Shown: positions 5,837 to 29,373 of the stretch, piece by piece | Position numbering within the stretch: position 1 is the stretch's first letter | How the letters are laid out: the number at the start of each line of letters is the position of its first letter | From: a virus | IMG/VR virus record: IMGVR_UViG_3300018045_000011 | Coordinates: 1 to 29,373 of that record | DNA length: 29,373 nucleotides | Reading direction: 5' to 3' (one strand) | The notes under the pieces: generated by a model | Databases searched by the model: none | The model's input: only the letters and a program-made list of their open reading frames with translations | What the model was told of the DNA's origin: nothing | Program-made: the position numbers and the translations under genes

Positions 5837-5909
5837 AAAGTTCAAACTGCCCTATACTTGTAACAACAAAGGGGACGTAAAGCCCCTAATTACTTCAACA
5901 ACAAATATT
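5803..5909 (+). promoter_or_regulatory. Early promoter and hairpin leader of the J-domain gene
   Basis: The -7 element is TATACTTG (5853-5860), preceded by CTGCCC, with a TTCG box about 20 nt upstream. TATTTACGAAG lies at 5803-5813. The leader contains AGGGG/CCCCT (5870-5874 with 5883-5887), then an A/C-rich stretch ending ACAACAAATATT (5898-5909) shortly before ATG 5916. Confidence 0.65.
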
Positions 5910-11139: not shown

Positions 11140-11290
11140 TTGGGTAGATTAAAATCCGTTCCGTATATTTACGAAGGCTAAGGGAGTGATGGCCCAAAGC
11201 TTTACTCTCTTAGCTATGTTCTATTTAGCTTGGCCCTTTTACGCAGCCATCACCTGCGTCTTAGGGCCTTCTTGTTTTAATCTTCAACCT
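11140..11290 (+). promoter_or_regulatory. Replication promoter and structured leader with complementary hairpin loops
   Basis: TTGG (11140-11143) and TATATTTA (11164-11171), 20 nt apart, fit the host promoter; TTTACGAAG here overlaps the -7 element. The transcribed leader folds into two hairpins: GCTAAGGGAGT (11177-11187) with ACTCTCTTAGC (11204-11214), one G-U pair; and GGCCC/GGGCC (11232-11236, 11264-11268) enclosing ACGCAG/CTGCGT (11241-11246, 11254-11259). The second loop CCATCAC (11247-11253) is complementary to GTGATGG (11186-11192), mostly in the first loop, so a kissing or pseudoknot contact is possible. TTCTTGTTTT follows, which suggests an attenuator before ATG 11291. Confidence 0.65.
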
Positions 11291-12082
11291 ATGGACAATA
11301 GTTTTATCTTAATACCAGCCGAGATTTTGGCCAATAAAGAGCTCAGCCACTTGGCCAAGCTGCTTTTTGGCAAAGTGTTAAGCGGGGCCCAAAAAGAGGG
11401 CTACAACTGGGCCACAAACAAGTACCTAGCTAGTTGCTTAGGCGTGACGGCGGGCACCATCTCTAAGGCTCTAGGAAAGCTAGAGGCCGCTGGTCTACTG
11501 CGAATAGAGATCCAAATGGACGGCAGCGGAACCCACCGAAAGCTTTACCCTATAGGGGTAGCCAAAAAAGCGCAGGGGGGTAGTCGAAAACAACTAGGGG
11601 GGGTAGTCGAAAATGACTACCCAAAAGAAGAGATAATAATAAGAGATAATAAAGAAGAGGCGCAAGCGCCTAGCGGCCCCGAGGGCCTTGAGTACTACCA
11701 AGCCACTATGGAGGTGGCCGAGTACTTTTCTTCTATCCTAGACGCAAGCTTCCGTATGCCGAAGACAAAAACGGCATTTCGTAAATACGGCCTTTACAAA
11801 GCCGTTAGGCGGATTTTGGAGGCTGGCTTTCAACTAGAGGAGGTCCCCAAGGTCCTAAAGTTCAAAAAATGGGAGTGGGGCCAAGATGATAAAATGAGTA
11901 AATTCTTAACATACCAAACGCTTCTCATTCCAGAGAAATTTGAGAAGTATCTTCAACAACGCACTAATGAAACAAAACGAATCAAAAAAAACCAAGGCCC
12001 TAGTAACGGCCAACCAAAACAACGCCTTGGCGATAAGTACGCCCAAAGAGCTGCAAAGCGCCTCGGCAAAATCGGGAATTAA
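11291..12082 (+). CDS. Replication initiator-like protein (winged helix plus phage replication C-terminal domain)
   Basis: The 263-residue product has a winged helix-turn-helix N-terminus (SFILIPAEILANKELS, then YLASCLGVTAGTISKALGKLEAAGLL), a low-complexity linker (about residues 88-132), and a C-terminal domain like Phg_2220_C, with RRILEAGFQLEEVPKVLKFK, W and FLTYQTLLIPEKFEKYL in order (about residues 137-225). This is the layout of initiators that bind origin repeats and load host replication proteins. The start at 11291 is chosen because the in-frame upstream extension (from 11186) is hydrophobic, spans the hairpin leader and is unlike this family. The linker DNA carries repeats in different frames, a probable origin. 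It overlaps the next gene by 116 nt if that starts at 11967. Confidence 0.8.
   Translation: MDNSFILIPAEILANKELSHLAKLLFGKVLSGAQKEGYNWATNKYLASCLGVTAGTISKALGKLEAAGLLRIEIQMDGSGTHRKLYPIGVAKKAQGGSRKQLGGVVENDYPKEEIIIRDNKEEAQAPSGPEGLEYYQATMEVAEYFSSILDASFRMPKTKTAFRKYGLYKAVRRILEAGFQLEEVPKVLKFKKWEWGQDDKMSKFLTYQTLLIPEKFEKYLQQRTNETKRIKKNQGPSNGQPKQRLGDKYAQRAAKRLGKIGN
11555..11687. other. Probable phage replication origin inside the initiator gene
   Basis: Three related repeats lie in a row: GGGGTAGCCAAAA (11555-11567, degenerate), GGGGGGTAGTCGAAAA (11575-11590) and GGGGGGTAGTCGAAAA (11598-11613), spaced 22-23 bp. Then comes GACTACCC (11615-11622), complementary to the repeat core, followed by an AT-rich tract with two tandem 13-mers, AAGAGATAATAAT (11628-11640) and AAGAGATAATAAA (11641-11653). 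Two GC hairpins follow, GGCGC-AA-GCGCC (11659-11670) and GGCCC-CGA-GGGCC (11675-11687). Repeat spacings are not multiples of three, so the copies are read in different frames: the DNA, not the protein, is conserved. The layout resembles lambda's origin within gene O. Confidence 0.65.
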
Positions 12083-14249: not shown

Positions 14250-14717
14250 ATGAAACATTACAATGATTTCCAAGAGTGGCTCGTAGCATACCTTAAGTAC
14301 CTGCTTAAGTTGGAACAAGACTTTGTTTCTGTCTTCTACTGCAGAAACTGTGTGCATCTGTTCGACCCAACTTGCCTCATCAAGGATGAACCCAAATTAA
14401 AAGATACTATTACCAACCGAGCCAAACTGTACATTCTTATGAATAACTACGCTCACGATGTACAGGAAATCACCAATAACGGTGATCTAACAAAGCCGAT
14501 GCGCTGGCCAAAAAAGGCCCAAATGGCCCACGGATGGGGAGAAAGTGCCGAACGGCACGGATATGATCTTGTAGAAGTCTATATGAACGACAAAGGCCAG
14601 TATAGCGGCTGCCCCAAAGACTACCAGTTCACCTTTTTCGGCTACCTCAAGGAAAACTTGGGGTGGAGCACATACACTACACAGCTTGACATTAAAAAAT
14701 CGTTAGGTCTAGCCTAA
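14250..14717 (+). CDS. Unknown early protein with a cysteine pair
   Basis: The 155-residue product begins with a helical segment (MKHYNDFQEWLVAYLKYLLK) followed by FYCRNCVHLFDPTC, a C-x2-C-x7-C pattern that could bind zinc. The rest is polar with several histidines. The start at 14250 is chosen from the promoter and leader; an earlier in-frame ATG at 14148 lies upstream of the -7 element. The stop codon is within a hairpin (14702-14718) that leads into the tRNA-like element. Function unknown. Confidence 0.65.
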   Translation: MKHYNDFQEWLVAYLKYLLKLEQDFVSVFYCRNCVHLFDPTCLIKDEPKLKDTITNRAKLYILMNNYAHDVQEITNNGDLTKPMRWPKKAQMAHGWGESAERHGYDLVEVYMNDKGQYSGCPKDYQFTFFGYLKENLGWSTYTTQLDIKKSLGLA

Positions 14718-14718
14718 C
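14702..14718 (+). ncRNA. Hairpin covering the stop codon, upstream of the tRNA-like element
   Basis: GTTAGG (14702-14707) pairs with CCTAAC (14713-14718) around TCTAG. The stop codon TAA (14715-14717) is in the 3' arm. It lies 6 nt upstream of the tRNA-like fold, so the two may form one structured intercistronic RNA. Confidence 0.45.
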
Positions 14719-14723
14719 CCCCC

Positions 14724-14775
14724 AACCCAACCCAATGCAGACGGTGCACGGCAGGTTCGAGTCCTGCTTGGGTTC
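14724..14775 (+). ncRNA. tRNA-like element: acceptor stem and canonical T-arm without D and anticodon arms
   Basis: AACCCAA (14724-14730) pairs perfectly with TTGGGTT (14768-14774). A textbook T-arm, GCAGG-TTCGAGT-CCTGC (14751-14767), directly precedes the 3' strand, with the G53-C61-type pair and TTCRANY loop. Where D and anticodon arms should be there are only 20 nt, with a 4-bp hairpin TGCA-GACGG-TGCA. The result is about 52 nt, two thirds of a tRNA, unable to decode. CCCAA occurs three times in a row at 14721-14735, so the 5' strand could pair in two registers. It may be a decayed tRNA, or a mimic recognised by RNase P, RNase Z or EF-Tu. Confidence 0.55.
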
Positions 14776-14796
14776 TAATTAAACAACAAGTATTTT

Positions 14797-15768
14797 ATGG
14801 AGATCTATATCGAAAAAAAAATGCGTAGAGATATGCATGTCGGAGTCACCATAGTGGGTGACGAATATATCACCTACTTTAAAGACTGGTTGCGCATCAA
14901 AGGCGTTTACGAGTTTGGTATTATTGTAAAATCTGAGCAACTGCTCAACCGAGAGCAATTGGCTGAGGCTTTGCTAGCCTTTATTAAGGCTACACCTGAG
15001 TTAGAGGTCCACGATAGCCGTGGCTCTAACTGGTTAGAGCCAAAGAATTTCGCTGAGGCTATTAAACCTGATTTCCAATATTTCGATAGCTGGTTTAACG
15101 AAATTAGCAGCTACCGAGAATGGATGTTTTTTCACTCTGGTAAAGAGTGGGAAGGCATTTACCACCAACTAAAAGAGATCGACCAATCGGCTGGGCTGAA
15201 AAACTTTAAAATTGGTTGGAACCGCAGCGGCGCTATTCCGAAGCCTATTGTAACAAGCAAGGCACTCGAGCAAACTGCAACAGCTGTTTTCGGTGACATC
15301 GAGATGGCTATCATATATAATGACCACTACGTTGGCATCAAAGATGTCCAGTTCACCAACGGCATAGAGGGCGAATTTGACGAGAGCAAGCTAAGCGAAA
15401 AAGTACGAGATGCGATTATTGATCGCAGCGATTCGTATAAGCATAGAACCGACCTATCTAGCGACTTCTTCTTTACTGTGAAATTCGGCGAAAAGACGGT
15501 CAACTGCCATAAGCGAGAAAGTAGCATTGAAGTAATGCTGGAACTTCAGCGACTATGTACTACCGAAAGGGTGGTGCTAAAGGCCGCAGGCTATCGAGGT
15601 AGTGATGATGACAATGTAACGCACAAAGGGGCTCTGGGTGAAGAGGTGCGAATTATGGCACCCAAAACCTACAACCGACACGACTACGTCAAAGCTTCCG
15701 TAATGGAAGCAGGCGAAAACTGGTTAAAATATAAAATGTATTTCGACATCTCAGAGCTAATCAATTAA
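14797..15768 (+). CDS. Unknown large early protein (323 aa)
   Basis: A soluble, mixed alpha/beta protein, acidic and rich in aromatic residues, without recognisable motif. The segment KFGEKTVNCHKRESSIEVMLELQRL and the C-terminal part with YRGSDDDNVTHKGALGEEV are the most distinctive. Translation starts at 14797 after ACAACAAGTATT, a one-base variant of the usual start signal. It is separated from the previous gene by the tRNA-like element. A bidirectional terminator follows, facing the minus-strand membrane module. Similar in size to accessory (host take-over or defence) genes, but no function is shown. Confidence 0.65.
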   Translation: MEIYIEKKMRRDMHVGVTIVGDEYITYFKDWLRIKGVYEFGIIVKSEQLLNREQLAEALLAFIKATPELEVHDSRGSNWLEPKNFAEAIKPDFQYFDSWFNEISSYREWMFFHSGKEWEGIYHQLKEIDQSAGLKNFKIGWNRSGAIPKPIVTSKALEQTATAVFGDIEMAIIYNDHYVGIKDVQFTNGIEGEFDESKLSEKVRDAIIDRSDSYKHRTDLSSDFFFTVKFGEKTVNCHKRESSIEVMLELQRLCTTERVVLKAAGYRGSDDDNVTHKGALGEEVRIMAPKTYNRHDYVKASVMEAGENWLKYKMYFDISELIN

Positions 15769-18733: not shown

Positions 18734-19348
18734 ATGAAAAAGACTTTAATAGTGCTAGACGCTGGCCACGGTGGCCAAGACCTAGAGGGGAACTATACCA
18801 CCCCGCCAAGCAAAGGAAAGTACTTTGACCACACTTTCCCCTGCCATTTAGGCAACCGATTTTTGGAGGGGGTGTTTAACCGCCAAATGGCCAAGAAGGT
18901 AGCCGCCGAGCTGCAAGCCCTAGGATTTCAAACCCAGTCCGTTTACCACGGCTGGATGGATAACTCTTTGGATTCGCGAACTGACCAAGAGCAGCAGTTA
19001 GTCAAGTTGTGGGGTGGGCCTTCGCTCTTCCTATCGATGCACGCCAATGCCGCACTATCCAAAGCAAGGGGTTTAACCCTCTGGACCTTCCCAGGAAGCA
19101 AGGGCGGCCAGCAACTGGCTAAGGCCCTATATCCTTTAAAAGGGGTATTTGAGGCCTGGGGAAGTACCCGCAGCAAGAACTTATATACAGAGGGGTACCA
19201 CATTTTAAAGCACAGTCGAAGCCCTGCGATGATATTGGAGCTGGGTTTTTTTGACCAGCCCGATGATGCCAAGCTATTGTTAAACCAAGACTTCCAAAAG
19301 GAAGTGGCCCAAACTATTGCCAGACTAATTGATAATAACTATGAATAG
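18734..19348 (+). CDS. N-acetylmuramoyl-L-alanine amidase (Amidase_3), endolysin
   Basis: The 204-residue protein is a complete Amidase_3 domain that cleaves the bond between the glycan lactyl group and the first alanine of the stem peptide. Zinc ligands are visible: H12 in LDAGHGG, E45 in FLEGVF, and H103 in LSMHANA; the catalytic glutamate is E169 in MILELGFF. There is no signal peptide or cell-wall-binding domain, as in many phages of Gram-negative hosts, so export needs a holin. It opens the late block just after a strong terminator, and its stop overlaps the TerS start. Leader GTAAAAAACAGAAGA resembles that at 24519. Confidence 0.9.
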   Translation: MKKTLIVLDAGHGGQDLEGNYTTPPSKGKYFDHTFPCHLGNRFLEGVFNRQMAKKVAAELQALGFQTQSVYHGWMDNSLDSRTDQEQQLVKLWGGPSLFLSMHANAALSKARGLTLWTFPGSKGGQQLAKALYPLKGVFEAWGSTRSKNLYTEGYHILKHSRSPAMILELGFFDQPDDAKLLLNQDFQKEVAQTIARLIDNNYE

Positions 19349-19748
19349 CAAGTCGCTGCAAGACAAGAAAAAAGCCAAGATGCTAGAGGCGTTGCCTAAG
19401 GCTATGGGCATTGTCACGCAGGCTTGCAAGATGGTGGGCATAGCTCGCCAGACTCATTACAACTGGCTACAGAATGATCCTCAGTATAAAGCCGACATCG
19501 AAGCGCTAAGCCTTGATGACTTGGTCTTAGACTTTGTGGAGTCTTCGCTTTATACGGCCATTAAGAAGGGCAATGTAACGGCCATTATTTACTACCTTAA
19601 CCACAAAGGGTCCAAGCGTGGGTATTTCAAAGATGGCGACCAGCAAGCCCCCAAAGCTTTGCCGCCCATCGAAATTCAAATAGTGGACGCTCCGAGAGCC
19701 GAGGCCGAAATCATAGACTATGAAGAGCAAACCCCTAATAAGGAGTAA
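19341..19748 (+). CDS. terS: Small terminase subunit (TerS), probable
   Basis: The 135-residue protein starts with a helix-turn-helix: LEALPKAMGIVTQACKMVGIARQTHYNWLQNDPQYKAD, typical of small terminases that recognise the packaging site. The central helical part (VESSLYTAIKKGNVTAIIYYLNHKG) is the oligomerisation region found in this family, and the acidic C-terminus contacts the large subunit. ATG 19341 overlaps the amidase stop and is chosen over a TTG at 19329. It overlaps TerL by 29 nt. Packaging sites usually lie close to terS, but no repeat is recognised here. Confidence 0.85.
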   Translation: MNSKSLQDKKKAKMLEALPKAMGIVTQACKMVGIARQTHYNWLQNDPQYKADIEALSLDDLVLDFVESSLYTAIKKGNVTAIIYYLNHKGSKRGYFKDGDQQAPKALPPIEIQIVDAPRAEAEIIDYEEQTPNKE

Positions 19749-20919
19749 TGTCTTTAATGCTCTGATGAGTACGCCTGCTGATAAGAAGATTGTTATCAAT
19801 CGGGGAGGTACTCGATCGGGTAAGACCTACTCTATAAGCCAACAGATAGTTATCTGGCTGCTGACTGGCAAATGGAACGACAGCATAACCAAGCTAGAGG
19901 GGACCTGCGACGTGGTGCGGAAGACTATGCCAGCCCTGCGAGCCTCGGCAATGAAGGATTTTACCAACATTCTTGAGCAAACAGGCCTTGCCCATCTGGT
20001 TCACCACATCAAGCGGGACAACATCTTCCAGTTTGAAGGGCGGGAGGTTCGCTTCTACCAGACCGATGATGAGCACAAATTGAGGGGTAACCAGCGGGAT
20101 TTCCTCTTTATCAATGAGGCGGATAAACTGACCTATGAGGAGGAGTTCTTTCAGCTCCTTATCCGTACTCGTGTGCAAATCGTGTTGGACTTCAACCCTT
20201 CCGACCCCTATACTTGGATAAAGACCAAGTTAGAAGATGATAGGGCCCTAAGAATGGGGGATGTTCGGACGGTGGTTTCTACCTACCTAGATAACCCCTG
20301 TTTGCCGCCTTCACTCATCAGGGAGATTGAAGCCATCACGGACCCCGACTTAAAAAAGGTCTACCGATACGGCCAATACGGAACGGTTAAGGGCTTGGTA
20401 TTTCCCAAAATACAGCTCGTTAGCCGCCTGCCTGACGGCCTAAAGAAAGTCGCTATCGGTTTGGACTTTGGGTTCACCAACGACCCAACAGCGGCGGTTA
20501 TCTGCGGGCAGCTCGGGGATATTTTATTCTTCCGCTGCATCATCTATGATAGGGCCCTGACCAACCAAGATATTGCTGAGAGGCTCTTGCCTTACGGCCT
20601 GCCAGTTATTGCGGACAGCGCCGAGCCCAAGAGTATTGAGGAGCTGCGCCGCTTAGGCATTAGAGTTCGGCCAGCCGTTAAGGGGCCCGATTCTATCCGT
20701 CAAGGTATCGCCTTGCTAAAGCGGTATGAGCTGGCAGTTACTGGGGATAGCGAGCCTATTATTATGGAGCAGAAGCTCTATAAGTATGCGGACGATCTCA
20801 ATACAAAAGCAAAGCGCCTCAACCCAATCGACAAGAACAACCACGCCTGGGACGCTATTCGCTACTGGGCGCAACATTATTTGTCACGGCGGTCCGATGG
20901 TGGACCCTTTACAACCTAA
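19720..20919 (+). CDS. terL: Large terminase subunit (PBSX type)
   Basis: The 399-residue motor protein drives DNA into the capsid and cuts it. The ATPase part has Walker A GGTRSGKT (residues 29-36), then FLFINEADKL as Walker B with the catalytic glutamate, and a motif around LDFNPS. The nuclease part has GLDFGFTNDPTAAV (first acidic residue), IADSAEPKSIEEL, and NHAWDAIRYW near the end, the three-acid RNase H-like site. All parts are present, so it should be active. The portal is not next to it; it lies at the far left of the window beyond the early region. Confidence 0.95.
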   Translation: MKSKPLIRSNVFNALMSTPADKKIVINRGGTRSGKTYSISQQIVIWLLTGKWNDSITKLEGTCDVVRKTMPALRASAMKDFTNILEQTGLAHLVHHIKRDNIFQFEGREVRFYQTDDEHKLRGNQRDFLFINEADKLTYEEEFFQLLIRTRVQIVLDFNPSDPYTWIKTKLEDDRALRMGDVRTVVSTYLDNPCLPPSLIREIEAITDPDLKKVYRYGQYGTVKGLVFPKIQLVSRLPDGLKKVAIGLDFGFTNDPTAAVICGQLGDILFFRCIIYDRALTNQDIAERLLPYGLPVIADSAEPKSIEELRRLGIRVRPAVKGPDSIRQGIALLKRYELAVTGDSEPIIMEQKLYKYADDLNTKAKRLNPIDKNNHAWDAIRYWAQHYLSRRSDGGPFTT

Positions 20920-20927
20920 ATGGAACT

Positions 20928-21143
20928 ATGGAAAAGAAAGAGCTATTAGTTTACCCAACTGGGCAATTGGTTTTTGCTGGCAAAAATGTCGGGCAAATTA
21001 CCCCCTGCCGAGGAAAGTATAAGTTAGTAATGAATTATCGCCTTGCGAGTATGCAAGCGCTTACACTCGAAGAACAAACGGCCATAGACTTGGCTGAACA
21101 TTTTATCTCATTAAATAATACGACCACAGATGGCGAACTATGA
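20928..21143 (+). CDS. Small late protein (71 aa), unknown
   Basis: Starts 8 nt after TerL. The product has a beta-hairpin-like N-terminus (ELLVYPTGQLVFAGKNVGQI) and a helical, acidic C-terminus. It overlaps the next gene by 14 nt. Such small proteins after TerL may be head completion or regulators; no family is recognised. Confidence 0.55.
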   Translation: MEKKELLVYPTGQLVFAGKNVGQITPCRGKYKLVMNYRLASMQALTLEEQTAIDLAEHFISLNNTTTDGEL

Positions 21144-21639
21144 AAAAATTGAGAAGCTAGCAGCGCTGCTAGTTGAGGAGATCGAATCTACCAATGTACC
21201 CACCAGCTTCAAAATGCTTGGGAAGACCATTGAGCAAGTGATTGTAACTGGCCAAGCGAAGCGAGGCGGAGGCCGCCGCCCAAAGGGCCGTCAGCTTCCT
21301 AAAAGCAAAATTGCCGAACGCTACGGAGTAAACCCCAAAGAGGCCAAAAAAGCAAAACCCCAAACTCTGGCCGACAAGGTTGAAGCAGCACGAGCTGCGA
21401 ACGCTCAAAACGAAGGGGTGTCCAATGAGGAGCCTCTTGGAGAGGACGTTGTTTTTGACGTTGTTTCTGATGTCACCGAAGAGCAGGGGGAGCAGATCGA
21501 ATTGGTTGATGAAGACAATGCCGTCCTTGCTACTGGAGTAGTTAATAAGGAGCGGCCAGTTAAAGGCAAGCAAGGTAGCCGTTCGACCAAAAAGACAACC
21601 CCTAAAAAGACAGTCCAAAAGAAAGGGCTGAATGATTAG
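21130..21639 (+). CDS. Unknown late protein with basic, histone-H1-like tail
   Basis: The 169-residue protein has a helical N-terminus, a basic GGGRRPKGRQLPKS stretch, and a helical motif KSKIAERYGVNPKEAKKA. The middle is acidic (DVVFDVVSDVTEEQGEQIEL), and the tail is lysine/threonine-rich (RSTKKTTPKKTVQKK). Basic stretch and tail suggest DNA contact, for example in packaging, but no known domain appears. It is joined by short overlaps to both neighbours. Confidence 0.55.
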   Translation: MANYEKIEKLAALLVEEIESTNVPTSFKMLGKTIEQVIVTGQAKRGGGRRPKGRQLPKSKIAERYGVNPKEAKKAKPQTLADKVEAARAANAQNEGVSNEEPLGEDVVFDVVSDVTEEQGEQIELVDEDNAVLATGVVNKERPVKGKQGSRSTKKTTPKKTVQKKGLND

Positions 21640-22324
21640 GGTCAAAATCAACGGTGTGGCGGCCTCCTTCCCTGAGGGGCCTAAGGAGGTCAGCTTGCGC
21701 CAATACATTGCTTACTGCGACCTACAGGATACGGCTCCGAAAGTGTTCAGGGATTACTATTTCCCAGAGGAAGATGAAGGCAGGGCCGAAGCTATTGCCG
21801 CCTTTCACGACCCCGCCAACCAGTTGGCAATTTTTAGCCACTACAAAAAGGTGCTCCAGCTATTTGCACCCCAGTTAGATGATGCCTTGTTTAGTAAGGC
21901 CCAGCCCCAGCAGTTGGCCGGCCTAGTCGTCCGCTGCATGCAGGCCGTTCTTCCAACGCCGAGCGAAGAGCGAGCGGGCAGGGTAATCGAGCACGAAGGG
22001 GAAGAATGGGAAATCCCCGCAAAGTTTATGAGGGGGGCTACTGTCTCCGAATATTTGGAGGCGGCCCAGTTCCTACAAAGCGCCAAAGAGGTAACATCTG
22101 GCCAATGGCAAAAGATGGCCTATGTTATGGCCGTACTTGTAAGGCGGCCCAACGAACCGTACAGCGAGGAGCTGATCAAGCCTCGGGCAGAGATGTTCTT
22201 AGGCTGGCCACTTGCGCACGCCTATAGGGTGGGTTTTTTTTTGCGGAGACAGTCCGTAAAGTTAAGAGCGCTTACCCAGCGCTTTATCGTGGCGCAGGAG
22301 GCGGCGCAGCTCTCCAAGGACTAG
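21632..22324 (+). CDS. Tail assembly chaperone-like protein, zero-frame product
   Basis: The 230-residue product starts with VKINGVAASFPEGPKEVSLRQYIA, the ubiquitin-like INGxxxxxPxxWxxVTLxQYI opening of many phage tail-assembly proteins, followed by helices. A slippery run (GGGTTTTTTTTTG, 22231-22243) lies about 30 codons from its end. After a -1 shift at this point the protein would continue 88 codons in the other frame and end exactly at the next gene's start codon. The layout matches lambda G/GT, where a fixed fraction of ribosomes shift. The tape measure gene is 5.6 kb away, further than usual. Start ATG overlaps the previous stop by 8 nt. Confidence 0.65.
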   Translation: MIRVKINGVAASFPEGPKEVSLRQYIAYCDLQDTAPKVFRDYYFPEEDEGRAEAIAAFHDPANQLAIFSHYKKVLQLFAPQLDDALFSKAQPQQLAGLVVRCMQAVLPTPSEERAGRVIEHEGEEWEIPAKFMRGATVSEYLEAAQFLQSAKEVTSGQWQKMAYVMAVLVRRPNEPYSEELIKPRAEMFLGWPLAHAYRVGFFLRRQSVKLRALTQRFIVAQEAAQLSKD

Positions 22325-22506
22325 ACAAGTTCGGGACCTACTTAATAGAGCAGGCCTTGGCAGAGGCTGGGGTTTTTAACCTGCCCAACCTTACCCCAAT
22401 GGACAGCGCAGGCAAAGCGAGCTTGCATAAAGCATTCCTTTACCTAGATGCCAAAGCGGCGGTCGAGCAGGCCAAAGCCAAGGCACAGCAAAAACAGCAG
22501 CGATGA
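22228..22506 (+). CDS. Frameshift extension of the tail chaperone-like gene (GT-type)
   Basis: The -1 frame opens at 22228, directly after TAG at 22225, and runs to TGA at 22504. It has no ATG near its beginning, so it needs a shift at the T9 run. The fusion would be about 291 residues: ORF1 to F203, then 88 codons ending ...QQKQQR. The extension is protein-like (LDKFGTYLIEQALAEAGVF, then a Lys/Ala/Gln-rich helix). Its stop overlaps the next ATG (22503), as elsewhere in this operon; without the shift a 178-nt gap would remain. Confidence 0.7.
   Translation, partial: GGFFFAETVRKVKSAYPALYRGAGGGAALQGLDKFGTYLIEQALAEAGVFNLPNLTPMDSAGKASLHKAFLYLDAKAAVEQAKAKAQQKQQR
22231..22243 (+). other. Slippery sequence for -1 frameshift
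   Basis: GGG followed by nine T and G. In the zero frame it reads GGT TTT TTT TTG; a one-base backward slip leaves TTT codons paired identically. Whether a downstream structure stimulates the shift could not be judged. Confidence 0.65.
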
Positions 22507-23072
22507 ATCTTGTAGAAATTGCCAATGTATTTAATACGCTTTGTCAATTACACCCAGAGGTTGGCTACTTCCACTATGGGTGGCGAAGCGACGTTAATTT
22601 GGCCATATCGAATAACTTTGCTCCAGATGGGGTAAGGAGCTATCCTTATGTCCACATGGACTTTACAAAGGACGTAACCAACCTAAAGGCCCACCCGCAA
22701 ACGACCAGCGAAATATACCTTATTGTTTCGGTCCCACAGGGGAGGGACAATTTAGGCCAAGGGCAGGAAGATGCAAACACCACCATAGTGGAGCAGCAAG
22801 CTAAGGTTAAGGAGATAGGCCTTAGCCTTATTAGGGGTTTTGTAGATGTTGGCCGAAATCAATACTCCTCTAAGTTTAGCGTGGTGTCTGATGTGGACAT
22901 TACCTACTCGGCCAACTATGCAGGCGACCAGCTTGTAGTGGCCTTCTTTAATTTTAGTATCAGATATGCGGACGATTGCCCGCAGATTTATACAGACTAT
23001 AGTTTGTTGCCGCCTAATTTCCAGCCTCTTCCAGTTAGTGGGGTCAGCGACTATGAAAAAGAATTTGAGTAA
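22503..23072 (+). CDS. Unknown tail-region protein, possibly tail terminator/completion
   Basis: The 189-residue protein is beta-rich and acidic, with aromatic motifs near the N-terminus (EVGYFHYGWRSDVNLAISN) and a C-terminal region with FFNFSIRYADDCPQIYTD. It sits between the chaperone-like gene and a gp10-like gene, a location used for tail terminator or head-tail joining proteins. Its stop overlaps the next start (TAATG). No family match is certain. Confidence 0.55.
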   Translation: MNLVEIANVFNTLCQLHPEVGYFHYGWRSDVNLAISNNFAPDGVRSYPYVHMDFTKDVTNLKAHPQTTSEIYLIVSVPQGRDNLGQGQEDANTTIVEQQAKVKEIGLSLIRGFVDVGRNQYSSKFSVVSDVDITYSANYAGDQLVVAFFNFSIRYADDCPQIYTDYSLLPPNFQPLPVSGVSDYEKEFE

Positions 23073-23590
23073 TGAGCATCTTCACCCAAATAGCCGCCGA
23101 GCTCGGCCCTATCCTTGTCGATGGGGTCAGAACAGAAATACTAGCCCAAGGGCATAAGCTTACAGGCTCTTTGTTGAAGTCTGTAGAGGCAAGGGTTAAA
23201 GAGCTGGCCACAGGGGCGCAGGTTCAAATCTGGCTCAATGATTATGGCGTGCCGCTCAATACTGGGGTACCTGCCCAGAACATACCTTATACGGCTGGCA
23301 GCGGTGCGACTAGCTCGGCTTATATTCAAGGCCTGATATTATACGCTCGCTTGCGCTTTCGAGTGCCAATCAGCGAGGCCAAAAGCATCGCCTTTGCCAT
23401 AGCCAACAAACACAAGGCGGAGGGAATGCCCACCAAAGCCTCTAGACGGTTTAGCTCCACAGGTAAGCGGACCGAGTTCTTGCAAGAGGCACAACAAAGA
23501 ACCGCCCCCGATGTGGAGGCGGCTATTGAACAAGCGATTGAGCGGGCGGTGGTAGATGTCTTTGCTGTACTGACCGAGGCCCGCTTCTAA
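23072..23590 (+). CDS. HK97 gp10-like head-tail or tail completion protein
   Basis: The 172-residue product resembles HK97 gp10-type proteins that join head and tail: an N-terminal helical stretch (FTQIAAELGPILVDGVRTEI), the recurrent GHKLTGSLLKSVEARV turn, a central part with GVPAQNIPYT, and a C-terminal helix (VEAAIEQAIERAVVDVFAVL). The match is by overall pattern and context. It ends at a conserved terminator. Confidence 0.6.
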   Translation: MSIFTQIAAELGPILVDGVRTEILAQGHKLTGSLLKSVEARVKELATGAQVQIWLNDYGVPLNTGVPAQNIPYTAGSGATSSAYIQGLILYARLRFRVPISEAKSIAFAIANKHKAEGMPTKASRRFSSTGKRTEFLQEAQQRTAPDVEAAIEQAIERAVVDVFAVLTEARF

Positions 23591-23596
23591 ATAGAA

Positions 23597-23630
23597 AGCC
23601 CCTAAGCGCAACGCCTAGGGGCCTTTTTTT
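23597..23630. terminator. Terminator shared by convergent genes
   Basis: AGCCCCTA pairs with TAGGGGC around AGCGCAACGCC, followed by seven T on the plus strand; the T-run overlaps the stop codon of the minus-strand gene. It is the second close copy of the 15778 terminator, differing in one loop base. Confidence 0.85.
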
Positions 23631-23868
23631 ATGTGCGCTCATTGCGCAAAAACCAGCAGTCGTCGATGGCATCGGCTGCTTGGTATTTATTTATGAAGTC
23701 GGCCTTTTCGGCCAACCCCACTTGCCGCAGCTCCTCCAGCCTTGGTACCCTGTAAAAGGGCTCGGCCCAGATGCGGACCGTCTTAATCTCAATTCCTCGG
23801 TACTCCATACCATCTTTTGTCAGATGGTCGAAGCGATACTCGTTACAAGGCTTATTATTGATCGACAT
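23629..23868 (-). CDS. Small unknown protein, end of a minus-strand three-gene unit
   Basis: With start at 23868 (overlapping the upstream gene's stop by 14 nt) the product has 79 residues: polar, with Arg-Tyr-rich N-terminus (YRFDHLTKDGMEYRGIEIK) and WFLRNERT at the C-terminus. It follows the small membrane protein in the same operon. A longer form from 23898 is possible. Function unknown. Confidence 0.55.
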   Translation of the reverse strand: MSINNKPCNEYRFDHLTKDGMEYRGIEIKTVRIWAEPFYRVPRLEELRQVGLAEKADFINKYQAADAIDDCWFLRNERT

Positions 23869-24073
23869 ACTCTTGTATTTTTTCGTTAGTGAGCTCAATG
23901 AAGTAGGCCTCTTCGCTTTGGCGGCAGGCCTCTAGCTCCTTGATAAGAGCCTCTCTCTCTTTGATTAGGGCCTCTAGGCGCTGGGTTGCTGTATGTAGCT
24001 TGATGGCTGTGGCGAAGGTGCCGATGGCCAAGAATAGCCAAGCGCCCAGCCAGATTATGTTAGGCTGTTTCAT
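23855..24073 (-). CDS. Small membrane-anchored coiled-coil protein
   Basis: The 72-residue product has an N-terminal hydrophobic helix (IIWLGAWLFLAIGTFATAI, residues 6-24) followed by a coiled-coil, QRLEALIKEREALIKELEA, and an acidic C-terminus. This is the form of an inner-membrane anchor with a short helical extension, as in i-spanins or anchor subunits. Overlapping starts and stops tie it to both neighbours. A lysis or exclusion role is possible by form only. Confidence 0.55.
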   Translation of the reverse strand: MKQPNIIWLGAWLFLAIGTFATAIKLHTATQRLEALIKEREALIKELEACRQSEEAYFIELTNEKIQEYVDQ

Positions 24074-24413
24074 CTAGGCGGTTTTGTGCTGCCACAGCGG
24101 CAGCGATTAAGATAATAGCTAGGGTGTCAAAGCCCATAGCTTGAGTAATAGGCAACTTGTCGCCGCCCTCAAACGTAGCCATTAGGCCTTGGGGGTGGAT
24201 GTCAACCCCGACTAGGGTACCTAGCTTAGTGTGCCCCACTTTGGGGGTTCTCCAGTTGGGGGTTAAGTAAAAGGCCCCGTGAAGCTCAAGGGCTCGGATG
24301 ATTTCCAACTCTGGCTGTTGGCTGATTGGGTTGGCTTGCTTCTCGACCCTTTTGCGGGCCAGAAACAATCTTGTTTGCTCCAACATCGTGGGTAGCTCCA
24401 TTACTGCATTCAT
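24060..24413 (-). CDS. Unknown protein with C-terminal hydrophobic helix
   Basis: The 117-residue protein has a soluble N-terminal part with PNWRTPKVGHTKLGTLVGVDIHP, then a single hydrophobic C-terminal segment (FDTLAIILIAAAVAAQN). It starts after ACAACAAATATAT, a variant of the early start signal, and is the first gene of a minus-strand unit placed inside the tail operon. A tail-anchored membrane protein is a reasonable reading. No family recognised. Confidence 0.55.
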   Translation of the reverse strand: MNAVMELPTMLEQTRLFLARKRVEKQANPISQQPELEIIRALELHGAFYLTPNWRTPKVGHTKLGTLVGVDIHPQGLMATFEGGDKLPITQAMGFDTLAIILIAAAVAAQNRLDETA

Positions 24414-24532
24414 ATCAGATATATTTGTTGTTGTTTACAATACTGCAATTTAAGCAACCCTCCTTAGACTTCCTAATTTTTACGAGCGGAATTTTACAGA
24501 GGGGTTGGGGCGTTGTGGTAAAAAAAGAAGAT
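24414..24532. promoter_or_regulatory. Divergent region between the minus-strand cassette and the tail genes
   Basis: On the minus strand it carries the leader and start signal ACAACAAATATAT of the cassette. On the plus strand it must supply transcription of the following tail genes, because the upstream operon ends at the 23597 terminator. The plus side has TTTTTACGAG (near 24477-24486) and TTGTGGTAAAAAAAGAAGA just before ATG 24533, similar to the amidase leader. No early-type -7 element is placed suitably. Confidence 0.45.
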
Positions 24533-25726
24533 ATGGCAGTAATAAATGGCCCGCAGGGCGACTTGGTGACCTGCTACAGGCCCATTATATACCGAACCGA
24601 GCAGGTGAGCGCAATCCCTTTATTGTACGCTCTGTGCACCGTCACGATCGACGGAGTTGGACACACTATAAAAAAAAGCCCCTTTGAAGTAGTGGGGACC
24701 ACTTACCGCTTTGAGTTCGATCTAGCTCAGATCTTTGTTGGGGTGACTGCTCCACAGGCTGGCCGATCCACAATGTTCCCAGATATTACCTACACTTTTG
24801 TAGGGGTGGAGAATACGGACGCTACAAAGGACTTTAGCGCCGATGTGGCTTATTACGGGGAAGATCCAACAACTGGGTTGCCTACCCTGCTGGAGCTATC
24901 CGACGAATTAAGCGGACCTAGAGTCTGCATTACTACCGTCCAGCAAGACGAAGACTACCAACTGGCTAGATTCCAAACCCCGCTAGCTGACTGGCTTAGC
25001 TGGGGCCTTGATGGGGAGACGGTAGGGCCAGACGACTATCGTCCTGCCACCTTGGTAACGGACGGCCAATTGCGGCCCTACCTTCGGTTGGAAAGTCCAT
25101 TGACAGTTGTGCCGAGGGATATTGCCCTCCCCCAGCTAGATAGCCGCAAGTTTCGCACTATGGACCTAGGCCCTCAAGCTATGGCCGATGGGGGCGGCAC
25201 TTTGATAACAGCGCTAGAGCAGGGCTATACGGTTACTGCTGGGTATTATACGGCAGACGCAGACCCGAACAGCTTTGTAGCCAGTCATAAAACAATTAGT
25301 TTTAACTACTCCAATGCGCCCAAATGCAATAGCACCCGCCTAATCTTCCTCAATCGCCTAGGTGGGGCGGAAGTGCTAGAGATAGCGGGCCGAGTTCGCG
25401 AACTGCTATCCGTAAGCAGCACAGAGGCAAGAACGCCCCTGCCCTTTGATGTGACCTTAGCCCAGCCCTTTAGTGTGGACCAGAGAGGCCGCAGGCGGCT
25501 ACAGGTTGAGGCGGTCAAGACTGCCGAGCTGAGCGGGCAGCTCTATACAGAGGATTATACCTTACTGGAGGACCTGCGCACCACTCCAGAGGCCTATATT
25601 CAAGTTGGGCAAAGTCTACAGGCAGTAACCATTGTAGATGCCGAGCTGCTGCTGGGAGACACTAACGAGCTAGCCACAGCATCGGTTGTTCTTCGATTTG
25701 CGCAGGATAGAATAATACAGCGATAA
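24533..25726 (+). CDS. Virion tail protein, unknown family
   Basis: The 397-residue protein is beta-rich, acidic, with low lysine and no membrane segment, typical of structural virion proteins. It begins MAVINGPQGDLVTCYRPIIY; the region with PQAGRSTMFPDITYTF and the end with VVLRFAQDRIIQR are distinctive. The start at 24533 is chosen because the upstream in-frame extension (from 24326) overlaps the minus-strand gene and is hydrophobic, unlike a virion protein. It overlaps the next tail gene by one base (TAATG). Probably a tail tube-associated, distal tail or baseplate component. Confidence 0.7.
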   Translation: MAVINGPQGDLVTCYRPIIYRTEQVSAIPLLYALCTVTIDGVGHTIKKSPFEVVGTTYRFEFDLAQIFVGVTAPQAGRSTMFPDITYTFVGVENTDATKDFSADVAYYGEDPTTGLPTLLELSDELSGPRVCITTVQQDEDYQLARFQTPLADWLSWGLDGETVGPDDYRPATLVTDGQLRPYLRLESPLTVVPRDIALPQLDSRKFRTMDLGPQAMADGGGTLITALEQGYTVTAGYYTADADPNSFVASHKTISFNYSNAPKCNSTRLIFLNRLGGAEVLEIAGRVRELLSVSSTEARTPLPFDVTLAQPFSVDQRGRRRLQVEAVKTAELSGQLYTEDYTLLEDLRTTPEAYIQVGQSLQAVTIVDAELLLGDTNELATASVVLRFAQDRIIQR

Positions 25727-27930
25727 TGAGAGTGACATTAAGAATAAATGGCCAAGTGGCCGACCTACCAGCCCAGCGGCTTAACCTTGGCCTCCTCTAC
25801 CAAATCACAACGGAGGAGGGCTTAACAGGCAACGCAGGGTCTAGTAGCGAATACAGCTTTGAGTTACCCGCCACCAAGCAGAACGACCAGATATTTGGCA
25901 GTTACTGGCAGGTGGAGCGGGCCGACAATACCGCCCAAAGTTTGCTATTGCCCTGCTCCATCGAGGTGGACGGCCTGCCATTTTTTGAGGGCCAAGCCTC
26001 TTTGCGTTCCGTTGCCTTGACTGGGGCGGCTCACGGTCTAGTTGGGCAGGCGTATAGCGTGGCGCTGTTCGGGAACAATGCGAGCTGGGCTTTGCAACTC
26101 AAGGGTCGGAAGCTCTGGGAGTTTTGCCAAGATATCCCAACCCACATCTACAACCAAGCGAACGTCTTTGCAGGCGTTGGCTACGTACAGCCAGATGATA
26201 GTGCGGGTATCCCTAATGGCGGCAGCAATGATGTAGCCGAGTGGGGGTATATGCTTATCAAGTGGCAAGACTGGGGGTTGCCTGCGGCTGCTCAATGGCA
26301 GGAGTATACGCCGCATTTGTTTGTTAAGTCGCTGCTCGGTCGGATCTTCCAAGGGTTGGGCTATAGCCTTCAAAGCACCTTTCTAGATACTGACTTCTTC
26401 GCCCGCCTGCGGCTGCCTATCCCTTTTCCTGATCGGTTGGGATCTGAGTATGGCGAGGAGTTCTTGAACTATACAGGCGAAGCAACAGCGCAGGCAAGCC
26501 AGCTTAATGGCTCTGCTTTGCAGCCTATGCCTTTTCCCCTCAACCCACAGCAGCCCCCCAGCAACCCAACGGCCTACAATACTACAACTGGGATATACAC
26601 GGTTCCCGAAGCAGGATACTATTTATTTGTGCTTGATTTAGATAGCATAGATATTAGCGGCACCCCCATACCTGACTCTATAAGGGTCGGGGTTACTACC
26701 TCTGGGCTAAGTGGTTTTCTTGGGGTTACTATCGATGTGGCCGACTTGCCCGCCCAAGGGGTCCGCTTTGAGCGTGTGCTTCAGATCGCTAAAGGGGAGA
26801 CGGCCTTTGTCTCGGTTAGTGGCCAAGATGCTGGGGGGCTGCCTACAGCATTTGACCAAGCCCAGTACACTGGCCGCCTTGAGATAAAAGCCGAGGCCGA
26901 AATCATCTCAGGGCTGGAGCTTAACTTTCTCTACCTCATTAACCGAAGTTGGGGGGCGCTTGAGTTTGTGCAGGGCTTAGCCCACGCTTTCAACTGGCGA
27001 TTCGAGACGGACACGCTGCGCAGGACTGTAACGGTGGAGCCTGCCGACCGCTATCCCTACGCCCAACAGGTTGGCGAATTCCAGCAGATCAACGACGGCT
27101 TTTATACTGGCCAAGTGGATTTGACCCAGCAACTGGACTTAATCCCAGGGGGACAGCTGGACAACAACAAGGAGCTACCCAAAGCTTACCGCCTAACTTG
27201 GAAGGCGGACAGCAGCGACGCAACAGCGGAAGCGTTGGCAGAGGGGGAAGAGCAGCCGCTCTTGTCGGCTCAATATGTCTTCCCAGACAATACCCAGTCC
27301 GATGATATTGAAGAGGTGGAGAACCCCTTCTTTGCCGCAACGGTGGCACTCTTTGATGCGCAGATCATTGCGGATGATAGCTTGGTTGTTCCCCAAATAC
27401 CCATGATTTGGCCCAAGTCCTATCTTGAGGACAAGACGGCGGATGAGCACTTGGACAAGCAGAAGTATTTGCCCCGCTTGTTCTATGGGGAGCCGTACGC
27501 CACAGGCCCAAGGAATGGGCGAATAAATGTTATCGGCGCTCCAGACGGTGCCGCCGACTGCCCACAAAACTATATGGTAAACTACAACAACCAAGACGGG
27601 CTATTCATTAGCTTGGCCTTTGGTGACGTTGCGGTAAACGGCAACAATATACAGGGGCTTTTGTCTCGCTTCTACCTGCCCAGCCTAAAGCGGCTCGAGG
27701 TAGGCAAGGTCCTTACCTGCACAATGATTTGGACACGCCAGCAGCTCAGCAACCTAAGCTTTAGGGAGCGGGTTATCATTGCGGGGAATGTCTATTTGCT
27801 ACAGCAGGTAGGCAGGTTCAATGTACTGGGCGCAGGGCCCACTAAAACTAAATTAGTATACAACGCTCAAGCCGAGGCGGAAGACCTAGATAAGGTTGCC
27901 GCAGGCCCGAGCAACAAAATAGCAGAATAG
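25726..27930 (+). CDS. Large tail/baseplate protein (734 aa)
   Basis: The protein starts with a small beta domain (RVTLRINGQVADLPAQRLN) and the segment SSEYSFELPATKQNDQIFG, followed by EVDGLPFFEGQASL, the opening seen in distal tail or baseplate proteins of Bacteroidota prophages. It is beta-rich throughout, with aromatic motifs such as SWGALEFVQGLAHAFNWRF (about residue 405-425). The C-terminal third resembles tail-tip proteins that meet the tape measure. It overlaps the preceding gene by one base and the tape measure gene starts immediately after its stop. A hub or tail-tip role is inferred. Confidence 0.7.
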   Translation: MRVTLRINGQVADLPAQRLNLGLLYQITTEEGLTGNAGSSSEYSFELPATKQNDQIFGSYWQVERADNTAQSLLLPCSIEVDGLPFFEGQASLRSVALTGAAHGLVGQAYSVALFGNNASWALQLKGRKLWEFCQDIPTHIYNQANVFAGVGYVQPDDSAGIPNGGSNDVAEWGYMLIKWQDWGLPAAAQWQEYTPHLFVKSLLGRIFQGLGYSLQSTFLDTDFFARLRLPIPFPDRLGSEYGEEFLNYTGEATAQASQLNGSALQPMPFPLNPQQPPSNPTAYNTTTGIYTVPEAGYYLFVLDLDSIDISGTPIPDSIRVGVTTSGLSGFLGVTIDVADLPAQGVRFERVLQIAKGETAFVSVSGQDAGGLPTAFDQAQYTGRLEIKAEAEIISGLELNFLYLINRSWGALEFVQGLAHAFNWRFETDTLRRTVTVEPADRYPYAQQVGEFQQINDGFYTGQVDLTQQLDLIPGGQLDNNKELPKAYRLTWKADSSDATAEALAEGEEQPLLSAQYVFPDNTQSDDIEEVENPFFAATVALFDAQIIADDSLVVPQIPMIWPKSYLEDKTADEHLDKQKYLPRLFYGEPYATGPRNGRINVIGAPDGAADCPQNYMVNYNNQDGLFISLAFGDVAVNGNNIQGLLSRFYLPSLKRLEVGKVLTCTMIWTRQQLSNLSFRERVIIAGNVYLLQQVGRFNVLGAGPTKTKLVYNAQAEAEDLDKVAAGPSNKIAE

Positions 27931-29373
27931 ATGGCAAAGAAGGTAATTGGCTTTACGGTAGACATCGAGGGCATTGATAGCCTAGACCGCCTACAGGAGG
28001 AAATCAAGGCCACCAAAAAGGAGCTGGGAGGGCTCACTAAGGGAACCGATGAGTACAACGCCACAGCGCAAAAGCTGGCCAAACTACAGGCCGAGCAGAA
28101 GGCCGTCCGAAAGGAGCAGACCGAGCTCACCAAAAGTTTCTTAGAAACCCGAAAGGCTACCAAGCCTTATGATGCCCTTAGCGCTACGCTTAACCGCCTA
28201 CGCAAGGACTATAAGAACTTGGCCGCCGCTGGCCAAGGACAGACCCGACAGGCGCAAGATTTGTTGGCCCAAATCGACCAACTGGATACCAAACTCAAGA
28301 GCATTGATGCTAGCGTGGGGCAGTACCAGCGCAATGTGGGTAATTATGCGGGAGGCTTTAAAGAGGCCCTTGGCGAATTTGCTGGGGGCCTTGGCGAGCT
28401 GGGCGGCTTGGTCAATCCTGCCACCCTAGGGGTTGGGGCGGCTATTGCTGGGGCGCAGGCCTTGGCGCAAGAGGTGCTCAACATCGAAAAGCAATTTGCA
28501 GACCTTGGCCGTGTGGCTACTCAGGTCACTGGCCTAACTGGTCAGGCGTTAGATGATCTGGTAGTTAATACGCAGGCCTTATCTACCACATTTGGCGAGG
28601 AGTCGCAGGCACTTATTCAGGCGCAGAATACACTCATTAAAGAGTTTGGCTTGAGCAGCCAAGAAGCCTTTGACATCGTGCAAACTGGATTGGCAAGCTC
28701 CGCCAATGCCAGCGGGGACTTTTTAGACTCAGTTCGCGAATACTCAACCCAAATTCGGGAGGCAGGCGGAAGCGCCACCCAGCTAGTATCTATCTTGGCC
28801 AAGTCGGGGCAGGAGGGAGTGTTTTCAGATAAGGGCGTCGATGCGGTCAAGGAGTTCGGCTTGCGGATTCGGGCAGAGGGTGACGCAGCTCGTACGGTGC
28901 TGGCCGACAACTTTGGGGCTGGCTTTGCCGAGGAGATTACTAAAGGAGTGCGGACTGGTAGCATTACCACCCTAGATGCTTTGCAGAAGGTTTCATCTCG
29001 AATTGACGAGATAGGCGACCAGACGAGAAAACAGGAGCTTATCAGCAACCTGTTCGGGGAAGCAGGGGAAGACGCTGGGGCTCGGTTCTTGGCAACGTTG
29101 GGCCAAATTGATACTGAGCTCGGAAAGGTCCTTGATAAAACAAACCCCTATGTCAAAGCCCAGCAAGATTTGTTGGCCGCTAATAAGGAGCTCGCAGCAG
29201 CTCAAAAGGAAGTGGCGGAAGAGTTCAGCGGCGCCAACTCTGGCATTGCCACTCTAACAGCCCGAGTAAAGGCCTTTTCTATTCGGGTGTTGCTAGCCTC
29301 ATTTAAGGCGCTAGTATTGGCCCTAAAGCCTGTAACGGACCTCTTTGTATCCATCGGCCAACAGACGGTGGAC
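27931..29373 (+). CDS. Phage tail tape measure protein, N-terminal part (cut by window end)
   Basis: An ATG directly after the upstream TAG opens 481 codons without a stop to the window edge. The N-terminus (VIGFTVDIEGIDSLDRLQEE) leads into a coiled coil (ELGGLTKGTDEYNATAQKLA, QKAVRKEQTELT), then a glycine/alanine-rich segment with GGLVNPATLGVGAAIAGAQA and a long helical repeat region, in which TQVTGLTGQALDDL and FGEESQALIQAQNT match the TP901-type tape measure core. Such proteins set tail length and form part of the ejection channel. The end seen here reaches a hydrophobic stretch (RVLLASFKALVLALKPVTDLF), which often precedes membrane-inserting segments. Confidence 0.9.
   Translation, partial: MAKKVIGFTVDIEGIDSLDRLQEEIKATKKELGGLTKGTDEYNATAQKLAKLQAEQKAVRKEQTELTKSFLETRKATKPYDALSATLNRLRKDYKNLAAAGQGQTRQAQDLLAQIDQLDTKLKSIDASVGQYQRNVGNYAGGFKEALGEFAGGLGELGGLVNPATLGVGAAIAGAQALAQEVLNIEKQFADLGRVATQVTGLTGQALDDLVVNTQALSTTFGEESQALIQAQNTLIKEFGLSSQEAFDIVQTGLASSANASGDFLDSVREYSTQIREAGGSATQLVSILAKSGQEGVFSDKGVDAVKEFGLRIRAEGDAARTVLADNFGAGFAEEITKGVRTGSITTLDALQKVSSRIDEIGDQTRKQELISNLFGEAGEDAGARFLATLGQIDTELGKVLDKTNPYVKAQQDLLAANKELAAAQKEVAEEFSGANSGIATLTARVKAFSIRVLLASFKALVLALKPVTDLFVSIGQQTVD

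Follow-up and report, generated by a model that had tools for sequence, protein, structure and literature searches.

A short tRNA-like element lies between two plausibly early genes of a phage whose host is likely a member of the Bacteroidota, and it very probably belongs to a genuine RNA family with members in other phages. The element can be described as the top half of a tRNA, in which an acceptor-like stem and a T-stem would stack into 12 bp closed by a T-loop, with a GG-containing bulge or miniature D-arm and no anticodon arm. We favour the reading that it is an intercistronic processing signal, cut by the enzymes that mature tRNA ends (RNase P, perhaps RNase Z), and give this reading a probability of about 0.52.

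The element and its surroundings

The window, by which we mean the whole stretch of DNA analysed, comprises the 29,373 bases of an IMG/VR record. Another record, of 21,362 bases, is 100% identical to it over window positions 18760–29373 and extends 10.7 kb beyond the window end, bringing the combined known sequence of the phage to ~40.1 kb. Homologues of a portal, a terminase, an Erf recombinase, a replication-initiator, an endolysin and a head protease are encoded, and no tyrosine integrase (PF00589) is found in the ~40 kb known of a possibly incomplete genome. The nearest named-phage relatives of the terminase are those of Bacteroides phages (37–39%), which points to the Bacteroidota as host, and it is because of the replication-initiator homologue that early status of the genes flanking the element is plausible. 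A 101-bp segment of the replication-initiator gene (11549–11649) recurs in the same phage with 81% identity at L087:6369–6470, and may be an origin or a protein segment that the two places have in common. The features discussed below are as follows.

11258–12082: replication-initiator homologue
14250–14717, plus strand: upstream gene of unknown function, 155 aa from its ATG (open reading frame list)
14729–14774, plus strand: whole mini-tRNA element in its preferred register (covariance model from other phages; descriptor match)
14729–14735, plus strand: 5′ strand of P1, AACCCAA, acceptor-like (sequence, fold, descriptor)
14736–14750, plus strand: bulge of 15 nt, TGCAGACGGTGCACG (minimum-energy fold)
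14736–14748, plus strand: mini D-arm-like hairpin, TGCA-GACGG-TGCA, 4 bp with GG in the loop (minimum-energy fold)
14751–14767, plus strand: canonical T-arm, GCAGG-TTCGAGT-CCTGC (sequence)
14768–14774, plus strand: 3′ strand of P1 (acceptor 3′ strand), TTGGGTT (sequence)
14775, plus strand: C at the discriminator position, directly 3′ of P1 (sequence)
14784–14799, plus strand: start-proximal leader with a AACAACAAGTATTTTATG-like motif, ending in the ATG at 14797 (motif list)
14797–15768, plus strand: downstream gene of unknown function, 323 aa (open reading frame list)

An initial annotation had described an acceptor stem and canonical T-arm between two genes, and the sequence bears this out both in the T-arm, which is the only one on the plus strand of the window to satisfy our descriptor, and in the pairing of P1; the 7-bp P1 and the 5-bp T-stem give 12 bp in total, all Watson-Crick. 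The motif AACCCAA is present twice 5′ of the T-arm within a CCCAA repeat, at 14724–14730 and 14729–14735. The first copy yields the 20-nt spacing previously noted and is an alternative register, but the second, with its 15-nt bulge, is the one chosen by the covariance model and also by the minimum-energy fold. The same annotation saw neither a D-arm nor an anticodon arm; the latter is indeed absent, but the bulge can form a hairpin with GG in its loop that is a possible mini D-arm. A hairpin at 14702–14718 over the upstream stop codon, also put forward as part of the structure, falls outside the modelled element, and no counterpart was noted in other members in a comparison that was not systematic. 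The element starts 11 nt past the upstream stop (at 14717) and ends 22 nt short of the downstream ATG. With its TTCGAGT T-loop and GACGGTGCA the window copy fits the family rule of 12 bp, TTCRANN and a GG bulge; it has A at +1, giving an A-U first pair, and CTA 3′ of P1 rather than RCC(A).

A full tRNA at this site is ruled out, as ARAGORN calls no tRNA at the element and the tRNA model RF00005 gives no match to it at E 10, there being no cloverleaf with an anticodon arm; the view that the element cannot decode is thus upheld. A tRNA-Leu with the bulge for its long variable arm was also considered and is unsupported. No Rfam family is reached at threshold by the window or by the mini elements, and weak matches of the window to drum and YrlA were judged to be chance.

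The folding energy of the region is ordinary (z of −0.5 for 59 nt and −2.0 for 96 nt), and a loose acceptor plus T-arm descriptor is expected to match by chance 0.035–0.055 times per window in dinucleotide shuffles. A stricter 12-bp descriptor finds two matches in 1500 Markov copies of the window, neither of them fully Watson-Crick, and the combination of a 12-bp Watson-Crick match with a T-loop and a GG bulge, all of which the window element has, is found in none of the 1500. A covariance model (R1) trained on ten elements of 41 nt from other phages, with the window sequence left out, matches 14729–14774 with 27.9 bits and an E-value, rough as such values are for covariance models, of 0.00095; the next-best match in the window has 12.1 bits. 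We regard the element as confirmed. The upstream gene has no PHROG or tblastn match and the downstream gene no PHROG, Pfam or tblastn match, and no relatives of either protein are found among the viral contigs or named phages searched, so that the window copy has no covariation of its own. Among the TerL relatives of the window phage there is no element beyond an isolated T-arm in L032. That T-arm (GGGGG-TTCAACT-CCCCC) is part of a structure at L032:8680–8765 that also has a stem, AGGATG/CATCCT, and encloses a long non-tRNA hairpin. The structure overlaps the end of an HNH-like open reading frame upstream of the terminase.

The AACAACAAGTATTTTATG-like leader motif is common to about a dozen other genes of the window phage, and at about ten other genes a short GC hairpin stands directly 5′ of an A-rich leader (AACAA[AG]TAT) and the start codon. 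This leader cassette consists of a short GC hairpin, whose sequence varies, followed by the A-rich motif AACAAATAT and the start codon. It recurs at window positions 5900, 6522, 6808, 7723, 9250, 9975, 14236 and 17393 on the plus strand and 24429 on the minus strand, and is probably a structure of the mRNA leaders in this phage, which lacks Shine-Dalgarno signals. The mini-tRNA element takes the place of the GC hairpin before its own gene. Since plain hairpins occupy the same slot elsewhere, the slot itself needs no tRNA shape; hairpins in it seem to be general in this phage, and the copy at 14729 seems to be the tRNA-shaped one.

Related elements in other phages

The initial annotation proposed a search of other phages for this truncated form, which is indeed present both in viral contigs and in named phages. 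A scan of viral contigs with GGTGCACG and a T-arm gave a second acceptor plus T-arm element in L093. A scan for T-arms only gave 84, of which 61 are in full tRNAs and 23 outside them; among the latter, L182 and L134 have the truncated form with GGTGCA or GGTGTA in the bulge, a word that was not in the query. A wider pattern revealed many more elements, including six copies between successive genes of L281. A descriptor that omits the GGTGCA word (a T-loop, a T-stem of 5–7 bp plus P1 to 12 bp, and a bulge of 6–30 nt) has 40 matches in 2.95 Mb of viral loci, compared to 0.17 expected per null set. Many of these 40 seeded no search; the non-seed matches cluster in L281, L255, L232, L251 and L300, and their bulges read, for example, GGATGTA, GGATGCA or GGTGTA. 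The members most like the window copy are those in L245, L308 and L316. They pair over 7+5 bp with A-U in first place, have C directly 3′ of P1 and GG ahead of the T-arm, and are followed by A-rich leaders in which no Shine-Dalgarno is obvious; this suggests a common Bacteroidota origin for these and the window copy.

The seeds were chosen partly by a word from the window element and the descriptor requires pairing, so that the table of covariation shows consistency and falls short of independent proof. Bias is smaller in the non-seed matches, in the P1 test on T-arms chosen without regard to P1, and in the positions of the elements. An initial alignment (A1), in which elements of different lengths were mixed, put P1 in the wrong place and was left out of the analysis. 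A covariance-model survey of ~160 bacterial genomes gave no match, and as it scored only a fraction of candidates and is insensitive, it is not evidence of absence.

Four named phages carry the element: Gordonia phage VanLee with 17 copies, Streptomyces phage Dagobah with two, and Mycobacterium phage SWU2 and Synechococcus phage S-TIP37 with one each. Dagobah, SWU2 and VanLee were reached by a BLAST search with one family element, and the S-TIP37 element, found by the model, precedes the major capsid gene; the T7-like cyanophages S-RIP1 and S-CBP3 have no good element. All 17 VanLee copies (15 by the descriptor and two by the model) are on the coding strand. The 15 descriptor copies all lie clear of genes and start 2–31 nt past the upstream stop, with the exception of one at 88 nt. 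In the leftward operon block at 71.5–82.7 kb the descriptor finds an element in 14 of the 17 gaps of at least 60 nt, and the model matches at 74532–74574 and 76682–76721 are in two of the remaining three. The T-stems vary from copy to copy with pairing kept. VanLee also encodes a Ro-like (TROVE) RNA-binding protein (NC_073474.1, 65751–67367), which is absent from the other seven of eight records tested, the window phage (G000 and G001) among them.

Two constraints and two further regularities emerge from comparing the family members. First, the helices stop at 12 bp, the length of the acceptor plus T-stem of a tRNA. When T-arms are chosen regardless of P1 and nucleotides are counted after the T-loop, the complement ends at +12 in 14 of 18 VanLee cases and in 9 of 10 L281 cases, and at +13 in 0 of 18 and 1 of 10; a 13th pair is formed in 3 of 47 elements compared to an expected 25% (p 0.001). 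Secondly, GG is present in the bulges of all 47, compared to 35.9 expected from shuffling. Thirdly, the ends are tRNA-like, with G+1 in 37, A73 in 26 and C74 in 31 of the 47, frequencies that suit RNase P; the window copy has none of the three. Lastly, a same-strand stop codon is found no more than 40 nt from the start of 39 of the 47, compared to 16% of random positions.

Other tRNA-like structures were seen in the same searches. Bulge-less T-loop hairpins of at least 9 bp occur only twice in 3.3 Mb, both with exactly 12 bp: one at L363:2996–3020, which in crAssphage cr10_1 separates a stop codon from the gene of an RNA polymerase sigma factor, and one in L114 around 9442; these are possibly a simpler form of the mini-tRNA mark. 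In L137, L155, L169, L175 and L176 a perfect 7-bp acceptor and a T-arm come with unusual interiors of 33–67 nt; ARAGORN calls none of these further non-canonical tRNA-like structures. A tRNA-like gene on the minus strand is common to two terminase-related phages (L073:9544–9615 and L079:9541–9612); its stems covary, its anticodon loop has 6 nt (TTAAY-ATTCCA-RTTAA), and ARAGORN labels it tRNA-???. A gene resembling tRNA-Tyr, with anticodon GTA, recurs in L098, L099, L102, L103, L105, L107, L108, L110 and L111. It has class I length and an unusual D region, is missed by ARAGORN, and adjoins ordinary tRNAs in some contigs.

Proposed processing mark and alternative readings

If the two genes are transcribed into one polycistronic mRNA, the element would be expected to fold soon after the upstream stop codon, with the GG of the bulge or mini D-arm probably docking on the T-loop as in the elbow contact of a tRNA. 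Enzymes that measure the acceptor and T stack could then recognise it. The likeliest is host RNase P, whose cut would fall directly 5′ of P1 (in the window between 14728 and 14729), and RNase Z or 3′ exonucleases would possibly trim the other side, so that cleavage would split the upstream from the downstream mRNA and leave defined ends. Known substrates of RNase P include acceptor plus T hairpins, the phage M3 and C4 RNAs, the T4 gene 32 mRNA and polycistronic mRNAs (PMC11143913). In sequence and model the window copy has the stack of 12 bp with a T-loop that marks such substrates, and lacks the G+1 and 3′ RCC(A) that many bacterial RNase P enzymes prefer, most other members having G+1 and C74. 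Its A-U first pair, the CTA that follows and its being single in the 40 kb known of the phage are points against processing. We nevertheless favour a processing mark, in view of these known substrates and of the Rfam model nearest to the VanLee elements, which, though below threshold, is that of mascRNA-menRNA, an RNA end released by tRNA-processing enzymes. The suggestion of the initial annotation that the element directs processing between the genes thus gains support as a possibility, and we consider a processing function in itself an even call.

The main rival is a stable tRNA-like cap that would keep exonucleases away from the upstream mRNA at its 3′ end, or attract the CCA-adding enzyme, EF-Tu or another tRNA-binding protein, with no 5′ cut by RNase P. 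It draws on the same anatomy and on the position soon after stop codons, and the 12-bp T-loop stack is a ruler for other tRNA-end enzymes too; however, a separate route for making the 3′ end would be needed, and the elements are followed within 20–50 nt by the next start codon with no obvious terminator, so that we think it unlikely. Less probable still is an ordinary leader hairpin, a spacer that keeps the AACAA[AG]TAT-ATG leader open or stabilises the downstream mRNA, and which looks like a tRNA by accident. The element does sit in the slot where about ten other genes have a short GC hairpin before the same motif, but those hairpins have loops of 4–8 nt and no T-loop, and both the Markov windows and the match of a model from other phages speak against an accident.

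Two further readings we consider highly improbable. A decayed tRNA, which the initial annotation offered as the simple alternative, or the 3′ half of a tRNA that recombination left behind, for instance as an attachment site, would account for the resemblance of the T-arm and its preceding GCACG to real phage tRNAs, and some of the tRNA-less T-arms in viral contigs do look like 3′ halves. But a remnant would not keep a 7-bp P1 and a GG mini-hairpin, nor recur after stop codons in other phages, and decay is weakened further by VanLee, with up to 17 copies whose differing T-stems are paired and occupy the same place relative to stops. The 3′-half or attP version is unsupported, with no PF00589 integrase in the ~40 kb and no matching tRNA in the genomes searched: GGTGCACGGCAGGTTCGAGTCCTGCTTGGG is present in no bacterial genome searched, and a shorter 3′ end occurs only in unrelated Arg and Gln tRNAs. 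Equally improbable is a decoy function in trans, in which a small RNA would imitate the ends of tRNAs and so occupy host nucleases, toxins or RNase P. Defences that target tRNAs exist, and the mimicry is confined to the tRNA end; however, about one copy per gene gap, on the sense strand and near stops, points to a role in cis. A general role as a ligand of Ro proteins is unlikely, and a link to Ro and Y RNAs was rejected, as the TROVE protein is confined to VanLee.

Returning to the proposed processing mark, we tentatively suggest, somewhat less firmly than for the window copy, that unrelated phages punctuate polycistronic transcripts with armless mini-tRNAs, at which host tRNA-maturation enzymes would cut at gene borders. 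In Rfam and open-licence papers we found no description of such a family, and one elsewhere is possible. If the proposal is correct, it would explain in a general way how long transcripts are cut and stabilised in some phages, would show in natural use the minimal RNase P substrate that is so far known mainly from the test tube, and would reveal a widespread RNA family, as yet undescribed, that at present escapes both tRNA finders and Rfam. VanLee offers 17 copies and a culturable host.

Comparison with known systems

YrlA, a bacterial Y RNA (RF02553), resembles the element in having a tRNA-like module with a T-arm; unlike a true member, however, the window T-arm scores 12.9 bits, far below the gathering threshold of 69, and the Ro (TROVE) partner is absent from the window phage. 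The minimal architecture of acceptor stem, T-stem and T-loop is shared with AT1-type model substrates and with the external guide sequence complex, which bacterial RNase P cuts in vitro (PMC11143913). Those are man-made, whereas the phage elements, as putative substrates, are natural, genomic and intergenic and have a GG bulge. To our knowledge the M3 RNA, the C4 antisense RNA of P1 and P7, the T4 gene 32 mRNA and the polycistronic mRNA substrates are single cases without a repeated T-loop element, unlike the phage mini-tRNAs, in which such elements are repeated. They are similar in being non-tRNA targets of RNase P in phages and operons, cut at non-tRNA structures (PMC11143913).

The nearest Rfam model to three of the VanLee elements is RF01684 (mascRNA-menRNA), with 22.5–26.8 bits against a gathering threshold of 42.5; at E 10 it gives no match to the window element. 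MALAT1 and NEAT1/MEN-beta terminate in mascRNA and menRNA, tRNA-like elements that the enzymes of tRNA processing excise from the longer RNA (PMC12941219). The likeness lies in a tRNA-like element at an RNA end that such enzymes release or, in the phages, would release; they differ in being eukaryotic nuclear RNAs that keep more of the cloverleaf, whereas the phage elements lie between genes and occur in many copies.

In mitochondrial transcripts, tRNA units between genes serve as cutting marks, and these are full or nearly full tRNAs that decode. Structured tRNA units between genes would be marks for cutting in both systems, with the difference that the phage mini-tRNA has no anticodon arm. 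As part of the same tentative proposal, phage mini-tRNA punctuation may be the bacterial-virus counterpart of mitochondrial tRNA punctuation.
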